From positions 1,798,001 to 1,862,000 of the forward strand of contig NZ_AP018721.1 of assembly GCF_003967275.1 (NCBI RefSeq): DNA of 64,000 bases. Direction: 5' to 3'. Both the position numbers and the translations under genes were made by a program. The notes below the pieces were generated by a model. It was not told the origin of the DNA. It made no database searches and saw only the letters and a list, made by a program, of their open reading frames with translations. The first letter of the stretch is position 1, and each line of letters starts with the position of its first letter. Origin of the DNA: Sulfuritortus calidifontis. GTDB lineage: Bacteria > Pseudomonadota > Gammaproteobacteria > Burkholderiales > Thiobacillaceae. Below are positions 1-63,860 of this stretch, piece by piece.

Positions 1-3000
1 GCCTGCGTTGTCGACGACATAGGTATCGTTGCCGGCGCCACCCGCCATGGTGTCGGCCCCCGTGCCGCCATCCAGGGTGTCGTTGCCGGCGTTGCCGGTC
101 AGCGTATCGTTGCCGGCCAGGCCCGACAACACATTGTTGCCACTGTTTCCGACGATCACGTTGTCCAGCTCGTTGCCGGCGCCGTTGATGCTGGCCGTGC
201 CGGTCAGGGTCAGGTTCTCGACGTTGGCGCCCAGCGTGTAGCTGATGGAAGACTGGACGGTGTCGATGCCTTCGTCGGCATTCTCCGTCACCGTGTCGCT
301 CGCGCTGTCGACGACATAGGTGTCGTCGCCGGCGTTGCCGCTCATGGCATCGTTGCCGGTGCCGCCGTCGAGCAGGTCATTGCCTGCATTGCCGATCAGG
401 GTGTCGTTGCCGGCCAGGCCGTAAAGCTTGTTGTTGCCGCTGTTGCCGATCAGGGTGTTGTCCAGGGTATTGCCGGTGGCGTCGATGTTGGCGGCCCCGG
501 TCAGGGTCATATTCTCGACGTTGGCCGACAGGGTGTAGCTCACCGAGGAGAGCACGGTGTCGGTACCGGAGCCGGAATTCTCGGTCACCACATCGCCGGC
601 ATTGTCGACGATGTAGGTGTCATTGCCCGCGCCGCCGGCCATCTGGTCGGCACCCGCCGCACCGTCGAGCACGTTGTCGCCGCTATTGCCGGTGAGCGTG
701 TTGTTCTGGGCGCTGCCGGTGCCGTCGTGGTTGGCCGTGCCGGTGAGGATCAGGTTCTCGACGTTGTCGGAGAGGGTGTAGGTGGCCGAGGACTGGACGG
801 TGTCGTTGCCCTCGCCCGCGTTCTCGATCACCACATCGGCCGTGTCGTTGACCAGATAGGTGTCGTTGCCCGCGCCACCGGCCAGGGTGTTGATGCCGGC
901 GTTGGCGGTGAGGGTGTTGTCCAGGGCGTTGCCGGTGCCGGAAAGGTCGGCGCTGCCGGTGAGGGTGAGGTTTTCGATATTGGCACTCAGCGTGTAGTCC
1001 GCCGAGGCCAGCACCGTGTCGGTGCCCTCATTGGCATTCTCCAGCACGACATCGGCGCTGTTATCGACGATATAAGTGTCGTTGCCGGCGCCGCCGATCA
1101 GGCTGTCGGCCCCCGCCCCGCCGTCCAGCAGGTTGTTGCCTGCCGTGCCGGTGAGGCTGTTGGCCAGGGCATTACCGGTACCGTTGAGATCATCGGTGCC
1201 GGTAAGCACCAGATTCTCGACGTTGTCGGTCAGGGTGTAGCTGATGGATGACTGCACGGTGTCCGTGCCTGCGTCAGCCACCTCGCTAACCACATCGCCT
1301 GCGTTGTCGACGATATAGGTGTCGTCCCCCATGCCACCGGCCATGGCATCGGCCCCGACACCACCGTCCAGCAGGTTGTTGCCGCTGTTGCCGGTGAGCG
1401 TGTTGTCGAGCTCGTTGCCGGTGCCGTCGATGTTGGCCGTGCCGGTGAGGATCAGGTTCTCGACGTTGTCGGTCAGCGCATAGCTGATGGACGACTGCAC
1501 CGTGTCGGTGCCTTCACCCGCCAGCTCGGTCACGACATCGCCGGCGTTGTCGACGATATAGGTGTCGTCACCCGCACCGCCTGCCATGGCATCGGCCCCG
1601 CTGCCGCCATCGAGCAGGTCGTTGCCCGCACCACCGGCCAGGGTGTCGTTGCCATCCAGGCCATAGAGCGCATTGTCGCCGGCATTGCCGGTCAGGGTAT
1701 TGGCCAGGACATTGCCGGTAGCCGTAAGGTTTTGCGTACCGGTGAGCGTAAGGTTCTCGACGTTGTCGGCCAGGGCATAACTCACCGAGGCCTCGATGCC
1801 GTCGGTACCGGCACTGGCAGCCTCGGTCACCACGTCGCCGGTGTTGTCGACGATGTAGGTGTCGTTGCCGGCGCCGCCGGCCATCTGGTCGGCCCCGGCG
1901 CCGCCGTCGATGCGGTTGTTGCCGCTGTTGCCGACGATGCTGTTGCCGAGCGCATTGCCGGTACCGTCGATGCTGGCCGTGCCGGTGAGGCTGAGGTTCT
2001 CGACGTTGGCCGAGAGGGTGTAAGTGGCCGAGGCCAGGACGCTGTCCATGCCCTCGTCGGCAGACTCCACCACCACGTCGGCCGTATTGTCGACGATATA
2101 GGTGTCGTCGCCCGTACCGCCAATCAAGGTGTCGGCGCCAGCCTTGCCGTCCAGGGTGTCGTTGCCAGCCAGACCGCTCAGGGTGTTGGCCGCGCTGTTG
2201 CCGATGATGACGTTGTCCAGCACATTGCCGGTGCCGTTGATCGCGGCCGTGCCAGTGAGCGTAAGGTTCTCGACGTTGTCGGACAGGGTGGTGGTGACGC
2301 CGGCCTTGACCAGGTCGGTGCCCTCGCCGGCCGCCTCGACGACCACGTCGCCGACGTTGTCGACGATATAGGTGTCGTTGCCGGTGCCGCCGACCAGCGT
2401 GTCGGCGCCCAGACCGCCATCCAGCGTGTCGTTGCCGGCCAGGGCCGTGAGGGTATTGGCCGCATCGTTGCCGGTGATGACGTTGTCCAACACGTTGCCG
2501 GTGCCATCGATGGCATTCGTGCCGGTCAGGGTCAGATTGTCCAGGTTGTCGGCCAGGGTCCAGGTCAGGTTGGCCTTGACCGTGTCGATACCTTCGCCCG
2601 CCAATTCCACGGTGGCGTCGCCCAGGTTGTCGACCACATAGGTGTCGTCACCCGTGCCGCCGACCAGCAGGTCGGCACCGGCGCCACCGTCCAGGGTGTC
2701 GTTGCCGGCCAGGCCGGTGAGAACGTTGTTCTCGGCATTGCCGGTGATGGCGTTGTTGAGTTCGTTGCCGGTGCCGTTGATGGCGTTGCCGGTAAGGATG
2801 AGGTTCTCGACGTTGGCGCCCAAGGTGGTGTCGAACGGCGCGATGACGGTGTCGGTGCCCTGATAGGCATACTCGGTGACAGTGTCGCCGGCATTGTCGA
2901 CGACATAGGTGTCATCGCCATAACCGCCGGCCATGCTGTCCGCACCCACGCCGCCGTCGAGCACGTTGCTGCCGCTGCTGCCGATAAGAACGTTGTCGAG

Positions 3001-3930
3001 CTCGTTGCCGGTACCGCTGATGTTGCCGCCGGTCAGGGTCAGGTTCTCGACGTTGTCTCCCAGGCTGTAGCTGATGCTGGAACGAACCGTGTCCGCGCCC
3101 TCGCCGGCCGACTCGGTCACCACGTCGCCGGCGCTGTCCACCACATAGGTATCGTTGCCCGTGCCGCCGACCAGGGTGTCGGCCCCGCCTTTGCCATCCA
3201 GGGTGTCGTTGCCGCTCAGGCCATAGAGCGTGTTGGCGGCGTCGTTGCCGGTAAGCACGTTGTCAAGCACGTTGCCGGTGCCGGTGAGGTTTTGCGTGCC
3301 GGTAAGGGTGAGGTTCTCGACGTTGTCGGTCAAAGTGTAGTCGATGCCGGACTTGACCAGGTCAATGCCCTCGCCGGCCTGCTCGATCACCTGATCGCCG
3401 GTGCTTTCGACGACATAGGTGTCGTCACCCGTGCCGCCCAGCATGGTGTCGGCCCCCAGGCCGCCATCGAGGGTGTCATTGCCGGCCAGGCCATAGAGGG
3501 TGTTGTCAGCAGAGTTACCGGTGAGCACGTTGTTGAGCTCGTTGCCGGTGCCGGTCACCGCATCCGTGCCGGTGAGGGTCAGGTTCTCGACGTTGGCGCC
3601 CAGGGTATAAGTCAGATCCGTATAGACTGTGTCGGTGCCCTGCCCCGCCAGTTCAGTCACGGTATCCGCCAGGGTATCGACCACATAGCTATCGTCGCCG
3701 GTGCCGCCGATCATCACATCGGTGCCGCTGCCGCCGTCGAGCCAGTCGTTGCCGCCATTGCCGGTCAGGGTGTCGTCGCCAGCCATGCCAGAGAGCACAT
3801 TATTGCCGCTGTTGCCGGTGACAGCGTTATTTACGGCATTGCCCGTTCCATTGATTGAGGACGCACCGAGAAGCACGAGGTCTTCAAGATTCTCACCCAG
3901 GGTATAGCTGATGCTGGAGAGTACAGTGTC
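1..3930 (-). repeat. Tandem RTX / ENLTLTG repeat array inside the giant protein
   Basis: About fifteen units of roughly 260 bp (about 87 aa) follow one another in the minus-strand reading frame. Each unit holds [13 protein letters not shown], an EGTDTV step, [20 protein letters not shown] and one or two GNDTLDGG-type RTX nonapeptides. At DNA level the recurrent marker on the plus strand is gttctcgacgttg. Units differ by having one or two nonapeptide blocks and by scattered substitutions, so this is an old, diverged array. The array continues past base 1. It also creates long antisense open frames on the plus strand. Confidence 0.9.
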
Positions 3931-6408
3931 TTGCCCTTCGTCCGAGTTTTCCGTGACCACGTCACCCGTATCGTCGACGACATAGACGTCATCGCCCGCT
4001 CCGCCGATGAGAATATCCCGCCCCTCGCCACCATCGAGTCGGTCATTCCCATCATCACCTTCCAGGGCATTGTCGAGGCCATTGCCGTAAAGAATGTCGT
4101 CACCGCCAAGGCCACGCGGAGTTTCGGTATCGCCTTCCCATGCGAACAGCACGTCGTCGCCTTCCGTGCTCACCGGCACAGGAATCATGGCCTTGATCTG
4201 GGCTAAATCCCAGACGACTCCCGCCTCCGTAGACCCTTCCGGCGGCGTGAACTCAATGCGCTCGATGCGGTAGGCATCGCCCTCGCCCCAGGTGTGTATG
4301 AGAATGCTGTCAGCACTGCCGTTGATGTTGAGCTTCAGGTCGAAACCACTGCGGCTCAGCGTAATGTCTTCAGGCGAAATGCCCGTGCCAAAGCGCAGAG
4401 TATCGATATTTCCAGTGGCGGGATCGACATCGAAAATGATGTCCTGGCCGTCTCCCAAATTGAACAGGTAGACATCGTTGCCCACATCGCCCACTAGATA
4501 ATCGTCGCCTGTGCCACCGCTCAGATAATCGTTGCCGCCATTTCCATACAGGTTATCGTGCCCTGCCATGCCATATAGGACATCGTCGCCGTTGCTGCCC
4601 CGCAAGGTGTTATTCCCAGAATCGCCTAGGGTGCTTTCGAGCCCCATGCTGCCCAGCAGACGAGCAAAGCCATCGCCGTTAAGGTCGCCTTGCGCACGCA
4701 GGGCATTAAGCACTTGACCGCCATCCTCTCCGCTGAGTTTAAGCACATCGCCAAACTCACTGAAGATAAGAACACTATTTACAGGATCGGCATCGTAGAC
4801 TGCTTGCATTGCCGCGATGGCGTCATTGACATCCCAGTCAAATCGGTTAGTGGCAACATTCCACGTTGCAACGATGCTATCTACTAAGGATTGAAAATGC
4901 GTTTGCGCCATGAGCTGGCTATAAATACTGTCGGCCAACTCATCAAAGGCTCGGAGAAGAATCTTGGAGGCCGGGCCGTGCGGGTTGGGGTCGCGCTCCC
5001 CCCAGCACCACGTACCCAGATAAGGCTCACCGAGGAAGGCTTCCAAGCTGGCGAGTTTTCTGGCGTCGCCGATGGCGTTGCCGTAGATAAGCCTGGCGGA
5101 CCGACTGGCAGGATCAATACCTTCTACACCTGCCCAAGCGTAGATAATTTGGGTTGTCAGCGCATGTCGGGCGGCTGCATCCGTCTCGCTGGCGAATTGC
5201 TCAACGAGCGCTTGCAGATGGCCACCACTGTCCCGCAGCATGGCTTGGTGCAGGTCATGAACATTGCCAAAACCCTGCAGGTCAGGCAGCGCAGCGACCG
5301 CATCGGTTTCTGGCAGCCAGTCGTTGGCGATGGTATTGGTCTTGTCTACCTGAAACCAAATGTCAGCTGTGGCGCCGGCACTGCCGTCAGTTCTGGTGAA
5401 GGTGCTCGTTTGTTTAACAACGTTGCCGTTGGCGTCCGTCTGGCTGGTCGAGGCATAACCGGTGGCAATGCCAGCCACCCCTGCATCAGCAAGCGTTAGC
5501 AGTTCATCGGCACCGCTGTAGCCATCACCATCAATGTCTTTCCAGATTTTCAGGGAAGAATAGGCAGCATCTTGCTGATTAATCTGACCATCATGATTGC
5601 TGTCCAATTCAGCCAGCGCCTGATAACCGTTGGCTGCCTTTTGTCCATTGGCAAGCAAAGTCTCAGAGCCAAAAAGCTCCCGGCCGGCATCAATCGTTCC
5701 ATTGCCATCGAGATCGCGAACAAGAAGGCCATCCTCGCTATCCACCCAGCCGGTTTGTTCGGCAAAACCGTTGCCGTCATGGTCAAAATAAGAACCACTC
5801 CGCAAGTCAGTAGTAGTAATTCCATCCCCATTCAGGTCTAAAGCAATCGGGGATCGGGTGATAGTAGCTTTGTTATATTTTTGCTTAATACTAGAAAGCT
5901 CTTTGTCCATTCGTAGACGCAAAAAAGGCTCTGGTGCGAAACCAAACGGGTCTTGAGCTGGATTCTTGGCTACCGATTTGTTCCATGGGTATATGCCACT
6001 CGAGTTAGGTTTTCCTGTGGCCTGACGCTCTTCATAGTGTAGATGCGGACCCGTACTAACATTACCCGTATTGCCAACTTTTCCAATTTGTTTACCCTGT
6101 GAGACGGTGTCACCGACTTTCAAATCAGTCGGCATCTCCTGTAAATGTAGATAGCGTGTAATGACCACGGTGCCATCGGGCAATGTATGTTGAATTGCAA
6201 TCCAATTTCCGGCCTTACTGCCATCATAATCGGCGCGAATTTCAGAAACTTTCCCTTCATATGGCGAGTAAATTGCCGTTCCTTCCGGCGCCGCCAGATC
6301 AATGCCCTTATGGTCTTTTGATGCTCCTTCTTTCGGAGCGGTCCGTGGTCCATATTGACCGCTCACACGGGTATAACCAGGAACAATATTGGAATAATTT
6401 CTTGCCAT
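1..6408 (-). CDS. Giant RTX protein with N-terminal M23 (LytM) peptidase, partial
   Basis: One open minus-strand frame runs from ATG 6408 to base 1 without a stop (2,136 codons), so the C-terminus and any type I secretion signal lie outside the window. A good Shine-Dalgarno (GAGGGAG) sits 6 nt before the ATG. Residues about 25-130 are a complete LytM/M23 domain: H33 and D37 in [13 protein letters not shown]88 in RYLHL, H122/H124 in GPHLHYE. Residues about 190-330 carry EF-hand-like calcium loops ([28 protein letters not shown]). From about residue 590 onward come RTX nonapeptides (GGxGxDxxx type) and 15 long repeats with the NVENLTLTG signature. There is no Sec signal, as expected for a type I substrate. 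The gene lies 19 nt after the 228-aa gene and downstream of a type I ABC transporter. Known for the families: M23 cuts peptidoglycan cross-links and RTX repeats fold on calcium outside the cell. Inferred: a secreted peptidoglycan hydrolase or bacteriocin, or a large surface protein with a processing domain. Confidence 0.88.
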
Positions 6409-6427
6409 ATCAATCTCCCTCAATTAT

Positions 6428-7114
6428 TTATTTACTGCACTCGTCTTCCGCATCCGGATAAAAACAATAAACACCCACAGGCGAAACATCATCCAGTTTT
6501 GTAGTTTTTTCATTTAGACGCCACGCCATTTTTACCTGCCTGCTATAGTGCAAGCAGCCTTCCTTCCCATGTTCGGGCTTCATCAGCCCGACATACACAC
6601 CAACATCTCCTTTTTTTTCGCAGCGCTCTATGCCATATCTATTAATCGCGTTCTTGCGCCACGCCAGTTTTCCATTTTGCAATTGATAACGCAGCAGATT
6701 GATTGGGAGACGACGCCCATCAATCACAGTTCTAGTCATATCTCTATCAACCTGTATAAGCACAAAACCACCTTCGTCTTTTATGTATCCCCTTTCAATA
6801 AGAATCGTATTCCCATTCGAACTCAAGATACTGCCACCCAATGTATTCCAACCAGGCAAGTCACCTTGTTTACTACCCAAAATCTTTGGCGGAATGCGCA
6901 AACCAATAAGCTGCTCAATGCCAGATATTTCTGCACCAGTCGCAGAGCCACCGCCAATAAACAGTAATGTGGCGATAACAATATAAAAAGCCCACTTTTG
7001 CATTGGCAATCTATTTTGAATGTGCGTTTTGTTTCTTTTTGTAGATAGTTCCTGATTTTCCGAGTTTGTTTCTTTCCATACGTCAATACCAACCAGTTTC
7101 ATTGCCTGAGCCAT
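6428..7114 (-). CDS. AT-rich membrane-anchored or periplasmic protein next to the RTX gene
   Basis: I do not recognise this 228-aa protein. The ATG at 7114 has a clear Shine-Dalgarno (AAGGGGA) about 7 nt upstream. An in-frame ATG at 7003 would instead begin exactly at a signal-peptide-like stretch (MQKWAFYIVIATLLFIGGG, then SATGAE), so the true start is uncertain: with the long start there is a 37-residue polar head before the hydrophobic segment. The remaining 165 residues are hydrophilic with three cysteines near the C-terminus (IERCEKKG, EGCLHY, GVYCFYP) plus one in DECSK. Base composition is clearly poorer in GC than the flanking genes, suggesting transfer. It ends 19 nt before the M23-RTX gene on the same strand. 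A periplasmic immunity or accessory protein for the secreted peptidase is an attractive inference from position and topology only. Confidence 0.6.
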   Translation of the reverse strand: MAQAMKLVGIDVWKETNSENQELSTKRNKTHIQNRLPMQKWAFYIVIATLLFIGGGSATGAEISGIEQLIGLRIPPKILGSKQGDLPGWNTLGGSILSSNGNTILIERGYIKDEGGFVLIQVDRDMTRTVIDGRRLPINLLRYQLQNGKLAWRKNAINRYGIERCEKKGDVGVYVGLMKPEHGKEGCLHYSRQVKMAWRLNEKTTKLDDVSPVGVYCFYPDAEDECSK

Positions 7115-7117
7115 TCT

Positions 7118-7288
7118 TTAGTCCCCTTCATTAGCCCTGACCATATCTTCACCATCCCGACGGCGCTCATCCTCCACCACCTCCATCCGCGTCGCCTGCT
7201 GGCGCGGCCCGAAGCTGAGCACCTCGTCCACTTGCAGGCCGCGCGGGATCTGGTGGGTGATGAAGAGCATGGTGACCTTGCCCTTGAG
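7118..7288 (-). pseudogene. Displaced copy of the 3' end of the type I secretion ABC transporter gene
   Basis: Bases 7153-7288 align with 8700-8835, the 3' end of the intact ABC transporter gene, over 136 bp with about seven mismatches and no gaps. The fragment still encodes LKGKVTMLFITHQIPRGLQ (the H-loop region) and the tail through VVEDERRRDG, then a different end (GEDMVRANEGD) to a stop at 7118. No Walker A, signature or membrane part is present, so it cannot act alone. Homology stops abruptly at 7288, sixteen bases before the inverted repeat of the RAYT element. Confidence 0.88.
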
Positions 7289-7304
7289 CTCGACCAAAGC
7301 GACC

Positions 7305-8130
7305 AAAGGGGTCAGCTTCGGAATATTTTTCAACAAAGCCCTCATACGCATCCTCCCATCAGAATCCAAAATCCACCTGGTCTTTTGACTCGTCGCTTCT
7401 CACAGGTTTGCCGGTCGGCCTACCCGGCTTGCTCTGCATGCGCCGGATTCCCACAGCCGCGCAAACCTTGTCGCTGAATCGATCGCTGCCCAGCGGCCGC
7501 CCCTGGGATAGGGCAAGCCGGATGTCGGCAAGTGCCTCGTCGTCCAATTGGCTGCGAAACAGGGCTCGGTAGGCGATGTGCCTGCCCGGCCCATCCTGAT
7601 CGAGGGCAAGGTAGAGCGGATGGGGCGTGATGCGCCGGTCGGCTTGGCCGAGCCCATTGTGCCGGTAGCTGCTCCAACGGTATTGGCCGGGGTCTTGCAC
7701 CATGTCGGCGCGGACGGGATTGAGTTCGATGTAGCGCATGCAGGTGAGCAGGTAGGCGTCTTCCTGTACGAGGCTGGATTTGTAGCGCCCTTCCCACAGG
7801 CTGCCGGTGCGTTTGTAGCTGCGGTTGATGTATTGGACATAGCGTCTCCCGATGGCCTGCATGAGTTTAGCGGTGCCGGTTTCGGTTTCCGGGGTGACCA
7901 GAAGATGGACGTGGTTGGTCATCAGGACATAGGCGTGGATGGCGCAATGCCAATCGGCAGCCGCTTTCTCCAGCCAATGGAGGTAACTGTGACAGTCCTC
8001 CTCGGCAAAGAAGCAGGGCTCTCGATTGATGCCGCGCTGGACGATGTGCTGGGGCAGTCCGGCTAGTTTGATGCGGGGGCGACGGGGCATGGTTTATCGG
8101 CTCGAAAGATTATGCGAAGCTGACCCCTTT
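7305..8130 (-). mobile_element. RAYT-type insertion with 16-bp perfect terminal inverted repeats
   Basis: AAAGGGGTCAGCTTCG at 7305-7320 is repeated as its exact reverse complement at 8115-8130. These ends enclose one HUH-type transposase gene (7359-8090) and nothing else, giving an 826-bp unit. The inverted ends may be its recognition sequences. No target duplication is obvious, as expected for HUH chemistry. It separates two type I secretion-linked genes and abuts the transporter-tail copy. Confidence 0.7.
7359..8090 (-). CDS. REP-associated tyrosine transposase (RAYT, IS200/IS605-like Y1)
   Basis: The 243-aa product has the order typical of Y1/HUH single-strand nucleases: an N-terminal PRRPRIKLAGLPQHIVQRG segment, the HUH metal-binding motif in MTNHVHLLV, then a helix YVQYINRSYKRTG holding the candidate nucleophilic tyrosine, and the WEGRYKSSLV and RYIELNPVRADMV blocks characteristic of RAYTs. 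About 30 residues at the C-terminus are polar and poorly conserved in this family. It is intact with no frameshift, and high in GC unlike the AT-rich genes around it. RAYTs cut and move REP-like palindromes; palindromic elements elsewhere in this window are possible substrates, but no sequence link is shown. Confidence 0.88.
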   Translation of the reverse strand: MPRRPRIKLAGLPQHIVQRGINREPCFFAEEDCHSYLHWLEKAAADWHCAIHAYVLMTNHVHLLVTPETETGTAKLMQAIGRRYVQYINRSYKRTGSLWEGRYKSSLVQEDAYLLTCMRYIELNPVRADMVQDPGQYRWSSYRHNGLGQADRRITPHPLYLALDQDGPGRHIAYRALFRSQLDDEALADIRLALSQGRPLGSDRFSDKVCAAVGIRRMQSKPGRPTGKPVRSDESKDQVDFGF

Positions 8131-8212
8131 AATTTCGGCCCAGTAATCACCAGAAAAGAATGTGGCTTCCAATCGCTACCCCCAGTGTCCACCCTAAGTT
8201 CTACACTTGGCA

Positions 8213-8638
8213 TCATTTATCTCCCTTAAATTCAACAGTCATGCTTGGATGACTTGCTTGCCAGAAATGCCGTTTTAGTTCCTCATCTTTTGATATTGAG
8301 AACATTTCTATAGTTATATTAATTGCGCCATTAGCATCTAGAAATGCTTTGGCACACTGAGATGTCAATTGCTGCAAAGCAGCTTTGCTACTTATCGAAT
8401 ATGTTTTAACGTTAATCCCAGATTTTGCAGGGCTAATAAATATTAATTTCTTATTTCGGCAGTCCTTTATCGACGAGCAGACCCCATTTTCAATCAGAAT
8501 ATTTTCCGATTTCCTTGCGAGATCAAGCCGCTGATTTTCGAACGTTCTATCTTCAAAACCCGCCTCAGAAATCCCAATGGTTACAATTATCAGCGACACA
8601 ACAATAATCAATGTACCTGGCGTTGATTTCCTTTTCAT
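8213..8638 (-). CDS. Small AT-rich secreted or membrane-anchored protein
   Basis: Unrecognised 141-aa product. It starts at ATG 8638 with a GAGGAG Shine-Dalgarno close upstream. Residues 8-27 (GTLIIVVSLIIVTIGISEAG) form a signal peptide or N-terminal anchor with an SEA-like cleavage site. The mature part has a cysteine pair in GVCSSIKDCRNKK and another cysteine in SQCAKAF, suggesting a disulfide-containing periplasmic domain. GC content is far below that of the transporter gene, whose stop lies 23 nt upstream. Its place directly after the transporter mirrors that of the 228-aa gene, which directly follows the transporter-tail copy, so it may be the counterpart of that gene for another, lost substrate. 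That is inference. Confidence 0.6.
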   Translation of the reverse strand: MKRKSTPGTLIIVVSLIIVTIGISEAGFEDRTFENQRLDLARKSENILIENGVCSSIKDCRNKKLIFISPAKSGINVKTYSISSKAALQQLTSQCAKAFLDANGAINITIEMFSISKDEELKRHFWQASHPSMTVEFKGDK

Positions 8639-8661: not shown

Positions 8662-11181
8662 TTAATTGTGCATCGTTTCGTTCGTTTCTTTATTGTCGCC
8701 ATCCCGCCGCCGCTCATCCTCCACCACCTCCATCCGCGTCGCCTGCTGACGCGGGCCGAAGCTGAGCACCTCGTCCACTTGCAGGCCACGCGGTATCTGG
8801 TGAGTGATGAAGAGCATGGTGACCTTGCCCTTGAGTTGGTTGATGGTCTTGGCGAAACCTTCGGCCGTCTGCTGATCCAGGTTGGACACGGCCTCGTCGA
8901 ACACGAGAATCTTGGGCCGCTTGAGCAAGGCGCGGGCAATGGCGATACGCTGGCGCTGGCCGCCGGAGAGGCCGACGCCATGCTCGCCCAATTCGGTCTG
9001 GTAGCCCTCGGGCAGGTGTTCGATGACGTCATGGATCTCGGCGGCCTTGCAGGCAGCGATTACATCCTCGAAGCCGGCATGGGGGTGGGCCATGACCAGG
9101 TTGTCGTAAACGGTGCCGGAGAACAGCACGGTTTCCTGCGGCACCACACCGAAGGCGGTGCGCAGCTCGTTGGCGGCCATGGTGCGGATGTCTTTGCCGT
9201 CGAGCTTGATATTGCCCTCTTGTGGCAGATAGAAGCCCAGCAGCAGTTTAGCCAAGGTGCTCTTGCCGGAACCGGACGGGCCCATGAGCACGGTAAGGTG
9301 GCCAGGCTTGAGGGTGAGGTTGAGATTGCGGTAGAGCCAGGGGTGATGCTCGGAATACCGGAAGCCGATGCCGGCCAGATCGATGCGGCCCTGTCCGGCA
9401 TTCTCCCGCTTGGGCGTGAGGGTGTGCGGCTCTTGCGGCATGTCGAGGATGTCGCCCAGGCGCTTGACCGCGATGTCGGCCTGCTGGAATTCCTGCCACA
9501 GGCCGGCCAGCCGGAGCATGGGCTGGCTCATGCGGCTGGCAAACATCTGGAAGGCGACCAGCATGCCGACGGTGAAGCCGTCGTTCTGCATCACCAGCAG
9601 GGCACCGACGATCAGGATGGACAGCGTCATCACCTGCTCCACGCCATTGGTGACGACGTTGTAGGTGTTGCCCGCCTGCTTGGCGCTGAAGCCGGCGGCC
9701 AGATATTGGGCGAAGAGGTCGCCATATTTGCGGTCGATGTCCGGCTCCATCTGTAGCGACTTCACCGTGGCCATGCCGGAGAGGTATTCGGTGAGAAAGG
9801 CCTGGTTGCGGGCGCCAAGCATGAACTGCTTGTTCAGCCGTTCGCGGAAGATGGGCACGACCAGGAAGCTGAGCACACAGATCACCCCGAGCAAGCCGAC
9901 GGCGATGAGCGAGAGCTGCCAGGAATAGGCGAACATCACCGCCAGGAAGATCAGCAGGAACGGAAAGTCGAGCAACAGGGTGATGGCGGCGCCGGAGACG
10001 AACTCGCGAATGGTCTCCACCCCCTGCAGGCGGGCAACCAGAGTGCCGGTAGGCCGGTGCTCGAAATAGGGCATGGGCAGCCGCAAGAGGTGGCGGAAGA
10101 CCTGGCTGCCGAGCACGGCGTCGATGCGGTTGCCGGTGTGCAGCACCAGGTATTGCCGCAGCCAGCTCATGACCGTGGTGAAGACCAGGAACATGATCAG
10201 GGCAATGCCGATGACCCAGAGGGTGCTCTGGGTCTGGTGCACCACCACCTTGTCGATGATGACCTGGGTGAATACCGGCGTGGCGAGGCCGACCAACTGG
10301 ATGGCCAGCGAGGCCAGCAGTACGTCGCGCCAGATGAGTTTGTGCTTGAGCAGTTCAGGTATGAACCAGCTGAAGCCGAATTCCTTTTTCTCGGTCTCGA
10401 AGCCAGGAATCTCTTCTGCCTTGCCCTCCCCCACCGATTCTTTGGTCACCAGCACCAACTCGGGCTCGAACCAGGCGGCGGCCTCCCCGGCCGGCAAGCT
10501 CTCCGGCGCCTGGGCGCCGGGGCGGAAGTAGAGCAACTGACCGGCCTCGCTGTTTAGAATGAGGACGGGGACGCTGGGCTGAGCCGGGGCACCGTGGTCT
10601 GCACTGGGCTCGCTCTCAATTTCAGCCAAGTCGGCAGTGGGCTCGGCCAGGGTAAGCTCGCCTTCCTTGCCGCCCTCAACGACATCTGCGGCGTGTTGGG
10701 GGGTCGCACGAATGAAGGCGATGGCGGGCAGCGGCAGGCCTTGCCAGTCCACGCCGGGCAATTCACGGTTACCGGTCTTGAGACCTAATGAACGCGCCGC
10801 CTCGTGGAAAGTGGCCAGGGTGTAGGGTGGCGGAAACTCCTGGGCGATGAGTGCCGCATCGAAGGGGATGCGATAGCGGTTGCACAAGCTACCCAGCAGC
10901 CAGAGCAGTTCGTCGTGCGAGATGGGGTGCAGCAGTGGCTGGGCCTGCGCGTCCGATTGTTCCGCCAAAGACTCTGTTTCCCCGGAGGACGTTTGCGCGG
11001 GATCGATGTTGCAGGTATTTGTTTCAGGGCCGCTGGCGACAAGCCGCGCAAGCGCCTGATGCGCTGCCCGATAGTGTCTTGCGATGACCGACGCAATAAA
11101 GCGCGCTGACAAATGGGCAAGACTCACCGCCCAATTGCCGCGCCCGCCGATCCTTCCCTGAATCGTTGTTCGCATTCCCAC
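8662..11181 (-). CDS. Type I secretion ABC transporter/permease (HlyB/LapB-like)
   Basis: The 839-aa product fuses an inactive C39-like peptidase domain, a six-helix ABC exporter membrane domain and a nucleotide-binding domain. Walker A GPSGSGKST begins at residue 634, followed by signature LSGGQRQR, Walker B ILVFDEAVSNLD and H-loop FITHQ. In the N-terminal domain the catalytic cysteine region reads ELLWLLGSLCNRYRI, resembling non-proteolytic C39-like domains that dock RTX substrates. Two additions stand out: about 80 residues before that domain and an acidic, proline-rich insertion (around residues 185-240) before the first membrane helix. The start is GTG 11181 or ATG 11175; both follow a GGGGTGGG stretch. 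The obvious substrate is the M23-RTX protein downstream. The membrane-fusion (HlyD/LapC) and outer-membrane (TolC) partners are absent from this window and may lie past base 1. Confidence 0.93.
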   Translation of the reverse strand: MGMRTTIQGRIGGRGNWAVSLAHLSARFIASVIARHYRAAHQALARLVASGPETNTCNIDPAQTSSGETESLAEQSDAQAQPLLHPISHDELLWLLGSLCNRYRIPFDAALIAQEFPPPYTLATFHEAARSLGLKTGNRELPGVDWQGLPLPAIAFIRATPQHAADVVEGGKEGELTLAEPTADLAEIESEPSADHGAPAQPSVPVLILNSEAGQLLYFRPGAQAPESLPAGEAAAWFEPELVLVTKESVGEGKAEEIPGFETEKKEFGFSWFIPELLKHKLIWRDVLLASLAIQLVGLATPVFTQVIIDKVVVHQTQSTLWVIGIALIMFLVFTTVMSWLRQYLVLHTGNRIDAVLGSQVFRHLLRLPMPYFEHRPTGTLVARLQGVETIREFVSGAAITLLLDFPFLLIFLAVMFAYSWQLSLIAVGLLGVICVLSFLVVPIFRERLNKQFMLGARNQAFLTEYLSGMATVKSLQMEPDIDRKYGDLFAQYLAAGFSAKQAGNTYNVVTNGVEQVMTLSILIVGALLVMQNDGFTVGMLVAFQMFASRMSQPMLRLAGLWQEFQQADIAVKRLGDILDMPQEPHTLTPKRENAGQGRIDLAGIGFRYSEHHPWLYRNLNLTLKPGHLTVLMGPSGSGKSTLAKLLLGFYLPQEGNIKLDGKDIRTMAANELRTAFGVVPQETVLFSGTVYDNLVMAHPHAGFEDVIAACKAAEIHDVIEHLPEGYQTELGEHGVGLSGGQRQRIAIARALLKRPKILVFDEAVSNLDQQTAEGFAKTINQLKGKVTMLFITHQIPRGLQVDEVLSFGPRQQATRMEVVEDERRRDGDNKETNETMHN

Positions 11182-11491
11182 CCCATATTGCCGTTCATTG
11201 CCGGCATTTAGTCACTATGTTGGCTGCGCTGCGCCAAGGAACGAACAGCGGCGATTTTAAAACTGTGCAGCTCGACAACGCACAGCCTGCCTTCTTGGCA
11301 ATCTCGCCGCCTTGAAACCTGTCCCTCAGGCCGACTATTTTATGCCCATCGCTCGATGGATTTGCCCTTTTCAAGGACGAACACATCCTAAATCCGGCCC
11401 AGGAAAAGCGTCAATTACGTAGCACTGCTTATCTAGAAAGGCTATATACCAGCGGAAAGCATGCCTCGCCCGCTCAATGGCAGATAGCGGC
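11182..11491. other. Intergenic region between the secretion locus and the tRNA-half scar
   Basis: About 310 bp with no convincing gene. A 63-codon minus-strand frame at 11195-11386 has no Shine-Dalgarno, no recognisable domain and unremarkable composition. The segment should contain the promoter for the ABC transporter gene, but I see no clean sigma-70 hexamer pair with correct spacing. Confidence 0.5.
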
Positions 11492-11541
11492 TGGTGCCGG
11501 CAGCCTGACTCGAACAGACAACCTACCGCTTACAAGGCGGT
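11492..11541 (-). pseudogene. tRNA-Thr(TGT) 3' half (positions about 27-76)
   Basis: On the minus strand this 50-nt piece folds as the anticodon arm ACCGC-CTTGTAA-GCGGT (anticodon TGT), a variable loop, the T arm GTCTG-TTCGAGT-CAGGC, the acceptor strand TGCCGGC, discriminator A and an encoded CCA. The matching 5' half (acceptor GCCGGCA, D arm) is not upstream: that DNA is the inverted Arg fragment. It is therefore a truncated tRNA that breaks at the 5' strand of the anticodon stem. Confidence 0.82.
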
Positions 11542-11555
11542 TACTTTCTTGACCA

Positions 11556-11602
11556 CCCCCCTAAGGGGAGGGTCGCACGTTCGATTCGTGCCGGGGGCGC
11601 CA
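11556..11602 (+). pseudogene. tRNA-Arg(CCT) 3' half (positions about 30-76)
   Basis: On the plus strand CCTAAGGGGA (anticodon CCT, A37-A38, 3' anticodon stem) leads into a GGGTC variable loop, the T arm GCACG-TTCGATT-CGTGC, acceptor strand CGGGGGC, discriminator G and encoded CCA ending at 11602. The 5' side is wrong: the anticodon stem cannot pair fully, the universal U33 is a C, and no D arm or GCCCCCG acceptor strand lies upstream. The CCA lies 15 nt beyond the trpD stop codon. Confidence 0.75.
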
Positions 11603-11617
11603 ATTTCGCCCATCCGT

Positions 11618-12630
<1,013 letters not shown>

Positions 12631-12634
<4 letters not shown>

Positions 12635-63745: not shown

Positions 63746-63860
63746 GTCTGACGATGACCTACTTTCACACGGGCAATCCGCACTATCATCGGCGCTGAAG
63801 CGTTTCACGGTCCTGTTCGGGATGGGAAGGCGTGGGACCACTTCGCTATGGTCGTCAGAC
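63746..63860 (-). rRNA. rrf: 5S ribosomal RNA
   Basis: On the minus strand GTCTGACGACCATAGCGAAG, then TCCCACGCCTTCCCATCCCG, AACAGGACCGTGAAACGC and ending GTAGGTCATCGTCAGAC form the conserved 5S sequence of about 115 nt; the first and last nine bases pair as helix I. Ends are approximate to a few bases. Confidence 0.95.

Follow-up and report, generated by a model that had tools for sequence, protein, structure and literature searches.

What brings the 3′ parts of two different tRNA genes face to face at the point where accessory DNA meets a core gene? The question is raised by a 111-bp stretch of the Sulfuritortus calidifontis chromosome (herein G000; a single contig of 2,720,636 bases) that lies in the window analyzed here, a 64,000-nt stretch of DNA spanning positions 1798001-1862000 of that contig (C1). 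A sequence-only reading had described the stretch as 3′ halves of tRNA-Thr(TGT) on the minus strand and tRNA-Arg(CCT) on the plus strand, and had interpreted them as attachment-site copies from two integration events. BLAST against the G000 genome confirms that the two pieces face each other. The Thr piece matches tRNA-Thr(TGT) at G000 911980-912033 (94% over 54 bp; E = 1.2e-17), and the Arg piece matches tRNA-Arg(CCT) at G000 1788428-1788474 (98% over 47 bp; E = 1.4e-16). Besides self-matches, these two genes, which ARAGORN calls as Thr(TGT) and Arg(CCT), are the only strong matches of the junction stretch in its own genome. Chance similarity of the two pieces to tRNA genes was considered and is ruled out by BLAST (E 1e-16 to 1e-17).

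Both pieces terminate in an encoded CCA, as had been read, and the CCA of the Arg piece lies 15 bp from the stop codon of trpD, at the junction of accessory DNA and trpD where the pieces had been placed. Two details of the earlier description needed correction. The spacing is close, as described, and comes to ~13 bp (11543-11555), not 14 bp. Both pieces had been said to break in the 5′ strand of the anticodon stem; this holds for the Arg piece, which begins within that strand and has its single mismatch at position 33, but not for the Thr piece, which begins at about position 26 and therefore retains the whole anticodon arm. Of the three substitutions in the 54-bp match of the Thr piece, two fall in positions 26-76. 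The spacer matches none of the arms of G000, G001, G002, and G005 and has no second copy in the fetched loci. At the junction, Rfam returns one tRNA match together with Plastid-ycf2 matches, all below gathering; we take the Plastid-ycf2 matches for antisense tRNA look-alikes. ARAGORN finds no complete tRNA gene in the window. A 5S rRNA gene stands at the right window edge (63746-63859, minus strand). The features of the junction and its surroundings are collected in Table 1.

Table 1. Features at and around the tRNA junction (positions are those of the window unless marked G000)
Feature	Position	Strand	Remarks
RTX protein, 4775 aa, start	1..6423	-	ORF continues left of the window to G000 1790096; Pfam HemolysinCabind, Peptidase_M23, Big_9, Cadherin_4
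Gene of 228 aa	6428..7114	-	No Pfam family
Y1-type (IS200-like) transposase gene, 243 aa	7359..8090	-	Pfam Y1_Tnp
Small gene, 141 aa	8213..8638	-	No Pfam family
Type I secretion ABC transporter gene, 839 aa	8662..11181	-	Pfam ABC_membrane, ABC_tran; 86.7% DNA identity to G005
c-di-GMP-I riboswitch, weak match	11294..11376	-	Rfam RF01051, 35.9 bits, gathering 35
Promoter-like hexamers TTGACG-18-TAGGAT before riboswitch	11385..11414	-	Consensus scan only
Promoter-upstream motif AAGCAGTGCTACGTAATTGACG	11409..11430	-	Also at own tRNA-Thr locus and in G005; 3 places in six genus genomes
tRNA-Thr(TGT) 3′ part	11492..11542	-	Positions ~26-76 with CCA; 94% over 54 bp (11492-11545) to intact gene, G000 911958-912033
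Spacer between Thr and Arg pieces	11543..11555	.	~13 bp; without match to any compared island arm
tRNA-Arg(CCT) 3′ part, attR	11556..11602	+	Positions 30-76 with CCA; 97.9% over 47 bp to intact gene, G000 1788399-1788474
trpD, first core gene right of island	11618..12634	-	Present in 41/41 relatives searched; flank 92.8% DNA identity to G005

There is nothing unusual about the Arg piece as an island boundary. The intact tRNA-Arg(CCT) (G000 1788399-1788474) and the fragment (G000 1809556-1809602) are both on the plus strand, 21 kb apart, and between them lies a 21-kb island (G000 1788475-1809602). In the sister genome G005 an undivided tRNA-Arg(CCT) stands 16 bp behind trpD, without an island; over the 115 bp that end with this gene, the sequence matches the left island boundary of G000 at 99% identity. 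The Arg piece is thus attR, formed by the original half of tRNA-Arg that the island displaced.

The same site is occupied in several relatives. In G001, an Arg 3′ half and a tyrosine integrase gene come after trpD, and in G003 an integrase gene adjoins Arg 3′ sequence. G013 and G024 carry islands of ~9 and ~13 kb, respectively, between an intact tRNA-Arg and a 3′ half, with an integrase-like gene beside each 3′ half (the gene in G013 was judged by eye). Because the integrases of G013 and G024 are of two different kinds, we regard the tRNA-Arg(CCT)/trpD site as an integration hotspot shared by unrelated elements. At their left ends, the islands of G000 and G001 have in common an alignable stretch of ~70 bp that contains GTGACAA repeats; its score of 52 compares with a mean of 20 for shuffled sequences and was reached by none of 1000 shuffles. 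The repeats recur at the end of the G001 island that bears the integrase gene and so resemble arm sites of such an enzyme; the alignment makes an integrase of the G001 type the one most likely to have placed the G000 island. No tyrosine integrase gene of this type was found within the G000 island, and no G001-like right arm at its right end, the junction. Judged by its sequence, the G000 island is a decayed member of the tRNA-targeted islands, with a left arm that matches the integrase-bearing island of G001.

The Thr piece requires a different explanation. Leftwards from the trpD side, the cargo of the island consists of promoter-like hexamers, a riboswitch, an ABC transporter, small genes with a Y1-type transposase, an RTX protein, and HlyD, the gene for which ends ~130 bp from tRNA-Arg on the left side of the island. 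A relative with the same secretion gene beside an intact tRNA-Thr was found in G005: contig JACAEC010000192 (3595 bases) carries the ABC gene (86.7% DNA identity) and the riboswitch, followed directly by an intact tRNA-Thr(TGT) that is placed and oriented as the Thr piece is in the window. This puts the same cargo directly against tRNA-Thr in a relative. HlyD, and with it the other end of the cluster, was not found in G005. Placement at tRNA genes is not a general habit of this secretion gene; a tRNA gene is present in the flank of 10 of 80 related loci, its type varies, and Thr(TGT) is seen only in G005.

The tRNA-Thr locus of G000 itself retains a trace of the cargo. About 144 bp behind the tRNA is TAAGCAGAGCAACGTAGTTGACG, 22 of whose 23 positions agree with G005; in the island, the corresponding stretch terminates in the promoter-like -35 hexamer. 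The promoter motif occurs in three places only in six genus genomes, namely the island, this tRNA-Thr locus, and G005. The upstream flank of the locus is syntenic with relatives. The interval from tRNA-Thr to tRNA-Ser contains an IS3-like element that encloses an IS30-like gene (G000 912199-914440; positions 6200-8441 of locus L043). This element cuts off the promoter relic; its outer ends form the inverted repeat TGAAGCCTCCTCG, with no visible target duplication. The arrangement is as expected after a deletion made by an insertion sequence, a reading in which both the deletion and the assignment to IS families are inferred. Islands also use tRNA-Thr in this genus: in G002, an island of 14.8 kb extends from tRNA-Thr to a Thr 3′ half that lies 8 bp before tRNA-Ser, and the integrase of this island is 43% identical to that of G001.

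These observations bear on the earlier suggestion that the junction joins attachment-site copies from two integration events. Following up the proposed checks, for intact genes with island ends and for the trpD flank in relatives, yielded both tRNA genes, an intact tRNA-Arg that bounds the island, the empty site in G005, and, in the same relative, the secretion gene at an intact tRNA-Thr. The Arg piece stands as an attachment-site copy. A second tRNA site is indeed involved, but only the Arg piece bounds an island in this chromosome. The Thr fragment is at 1.81 Mb and the intact tRNA-Thr(TGT) at 912 kb, in opposite orientation, and the two do not pair as the ends of an island. Instead of the attachment-site copy of a second island here, the Thr piece is better read as a relic of the earlier location of the cluster, carried along with it; it is probably a fossil of the former tRNA site of the cargo.

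We therefore favor, as the likely course of events, an account in which the Arg piece is the attR of a G001-type island, the cargo was formerly housed at tRNA-Thr, and an integrase arm has been lost. A tyrosine integrase of the G001 type would have put the 21-kb island into tRNA-Arg(CCT) beside trpD, with the crossover near the anticodon; tRNA-Arg would have been made whole again at the left by a new 3′ half that the island brought, and the original half, displaced, would have stayed beside trpD. The riboswitch-led type I secretion/RTX cluster would earlier have been housed behind tRNA-Thr(TGT) and would have reached tRNA-Arg together with the adjoining tRNA-Thr 3′ half, either within the lineage or from a donor strain. 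Loss of the right arm with the integrase gene during the joining would then have left the old Thr edge abutting the Arg attR head to head. In the 111-bp scar, one gene cluster has thus probably left a record of two homes, occupied one after the other. The two island ends, the empty site, the shared left arm, the secretion gene at tRNA-Thr in G005, and the promoter relic at the tRNA-Thr of G000 are directly seen; that the move ran from Thr to Arg, and that the joint was made by loss of the integrase arm, we infer. Several observations stand against this account. The intervals from the Thr sequence to the promoter motif are 61, 144, and 192 bp at the three places, and because these stretches do not align mutually the junctions are not simple copies of one another. 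The ABC gene is 86.7% identical to G005 and the trp flank 92.8%, a difference that would also fit arrival from another strain. The spacer, without a match to the compared arms, and the failure to find HlyD in G005 likewise count against it.

Other histories could give the same adjacency. Accretion would begin with tandem islands at tRNA-Arg, one of which brought the Thr half in its attP, and would end with deletion of the intervening DNA. Tandem islands are known (PMC4383910), and tRNA-Arg and tRNA-Thr are both island sites in the genus, with related integrases (43% identity); however, no remains of a second island are seen, with HlyD ~130 bp from tRNA-Arg and the rest forming one cluster. We consider accretion unlikely as a history of its own; it overlaps with the favored account, from which the order of steps is its sole difference. 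Inversion-type recombination would produce the head-to-head joint in one step, by an integrase acting on the Thr and Arg anticodon regions in opposite orientation. The breaks of both pieces lie close to the anticodon, which is the cleavage region of this integrase family in G001 and G002, and the tyrosine recombinase of the archaeal element pTN3 inverts DNA between tRNA genes, which would give head-to-head tRNA halves (PMC5495485). In that system, however, a Leu/Thr tRNA pair failed to recombine, and G000 shows neither a reciprocal joint of 5′ halves nor inverted flanks: the Thr and Arg loci are each intact, with upstream flanks in synteny with relatives. Inversion also leaves the spacer unexplained, and we judge it decidedly unlikely.

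The Thr and Arg pieces both lie in element-side sequence beside the attR core, as they would if the pair were a single attP of an element using two tRNA targets. Searches revealed the same junction in no other of 399 genomes of the order, in no plasmid or phage, and, as an exact 26-mer, in no viral contig; with no second example, no integrase in the island, and substitutions in the Thr piece, such an attP is highly improbable. As a route by which cargo switches sites, one integrase reaction between opposed tRNA sites, or a two-target attP, is doubtful; an integrase-made joint, if demonstrated, would account for such switching. A role of the opposed halves in ending transcription, or as a hairpin, between trpD and the cluster is also very improbable. 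Folding of the 119-nt stretch is stronger than that of its shuffles (z ~-3.3 on either strand), and a terminator-like stem lies at 11525-11541, but opposed tRNA pieces share sequence and fold on each other without selection, and there is no second copy in which conservation could be read. An assembly join is the least credible source of the junction. It would fit the presence of the junction in one genome only; against it, the genome is a single contig, the Thr piece has diverged from the genome's own tRNA-Thr, unlike a misjoin at a repeat, and the relic at tRNA-Thr together with the G005 arrangement predicts the adjacency.

Compared with known systems, the junction is a known kind of island boundary in an unusual arrangement. 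It shares with Islander-type tRNA-targeted islands, whose attachment is anticodon-centered, the intact tRNA at one end, a like-oriented 3′ fragment of it at the opposite end, and the empty site in a relative (PMC4383910); it differs from them in that the G000 island has no integrase gene and a second tRNA 3′ piece faces attR at ~13 bp. Composite and tandem islands and secondary attachment sites, for example SGI1 (PMC2297512) and CGI48 (PMC8978831), likewise present one locus with traces of more than one integration site, whereas here the second site is only a relic, of a site elsewhere in the genome. The open-licence literature searched yielded no description of tRNA 3′ halves paired head to head. 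The scar is a readable record that the riboswitch-led secretion/RTX cluster probably changed its tRNA home among close relatives, the old site keeping a relic and the new one being marked by an att boundary. Orphan tRNA pieces within islands may, by this example, point to the origin of cargo, and the arm sequence of an island that lacks an integrase may still reveal which type of integrase inserted it.

The gene families of the cargo suggest a putative c-di-GMP-controlled type I secretion and adhesin system. Lap-type systems comprise giant RTX adhesins that are secreted by the type I pathway under c-di-GMP control. The island resembles them in combining a c-di-GMP riboswitch with an ABC transporter, HlyD, and a giant RTX protein, and differs in that control is suggested by a riboswitch and the adhesin function is putative. 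The riboswitch of the window looks decayed, because it scores 35.9 bits and its counterpart in G005 scores 84.7. The 4775-aa protein combines an M23 peptidase domain, RTX repeats, and Ig/cadherin-like domains; it opens with the M23 peptidase domain, which is unexpected in such a protein. The ABC transporter gene has a second copy of its 3′ end, in the form of a 145-nt direct repeat (93%; 7144-7288 and 8691-8835), and the small gene and the Y1-type transposase gene lie between the two copies.
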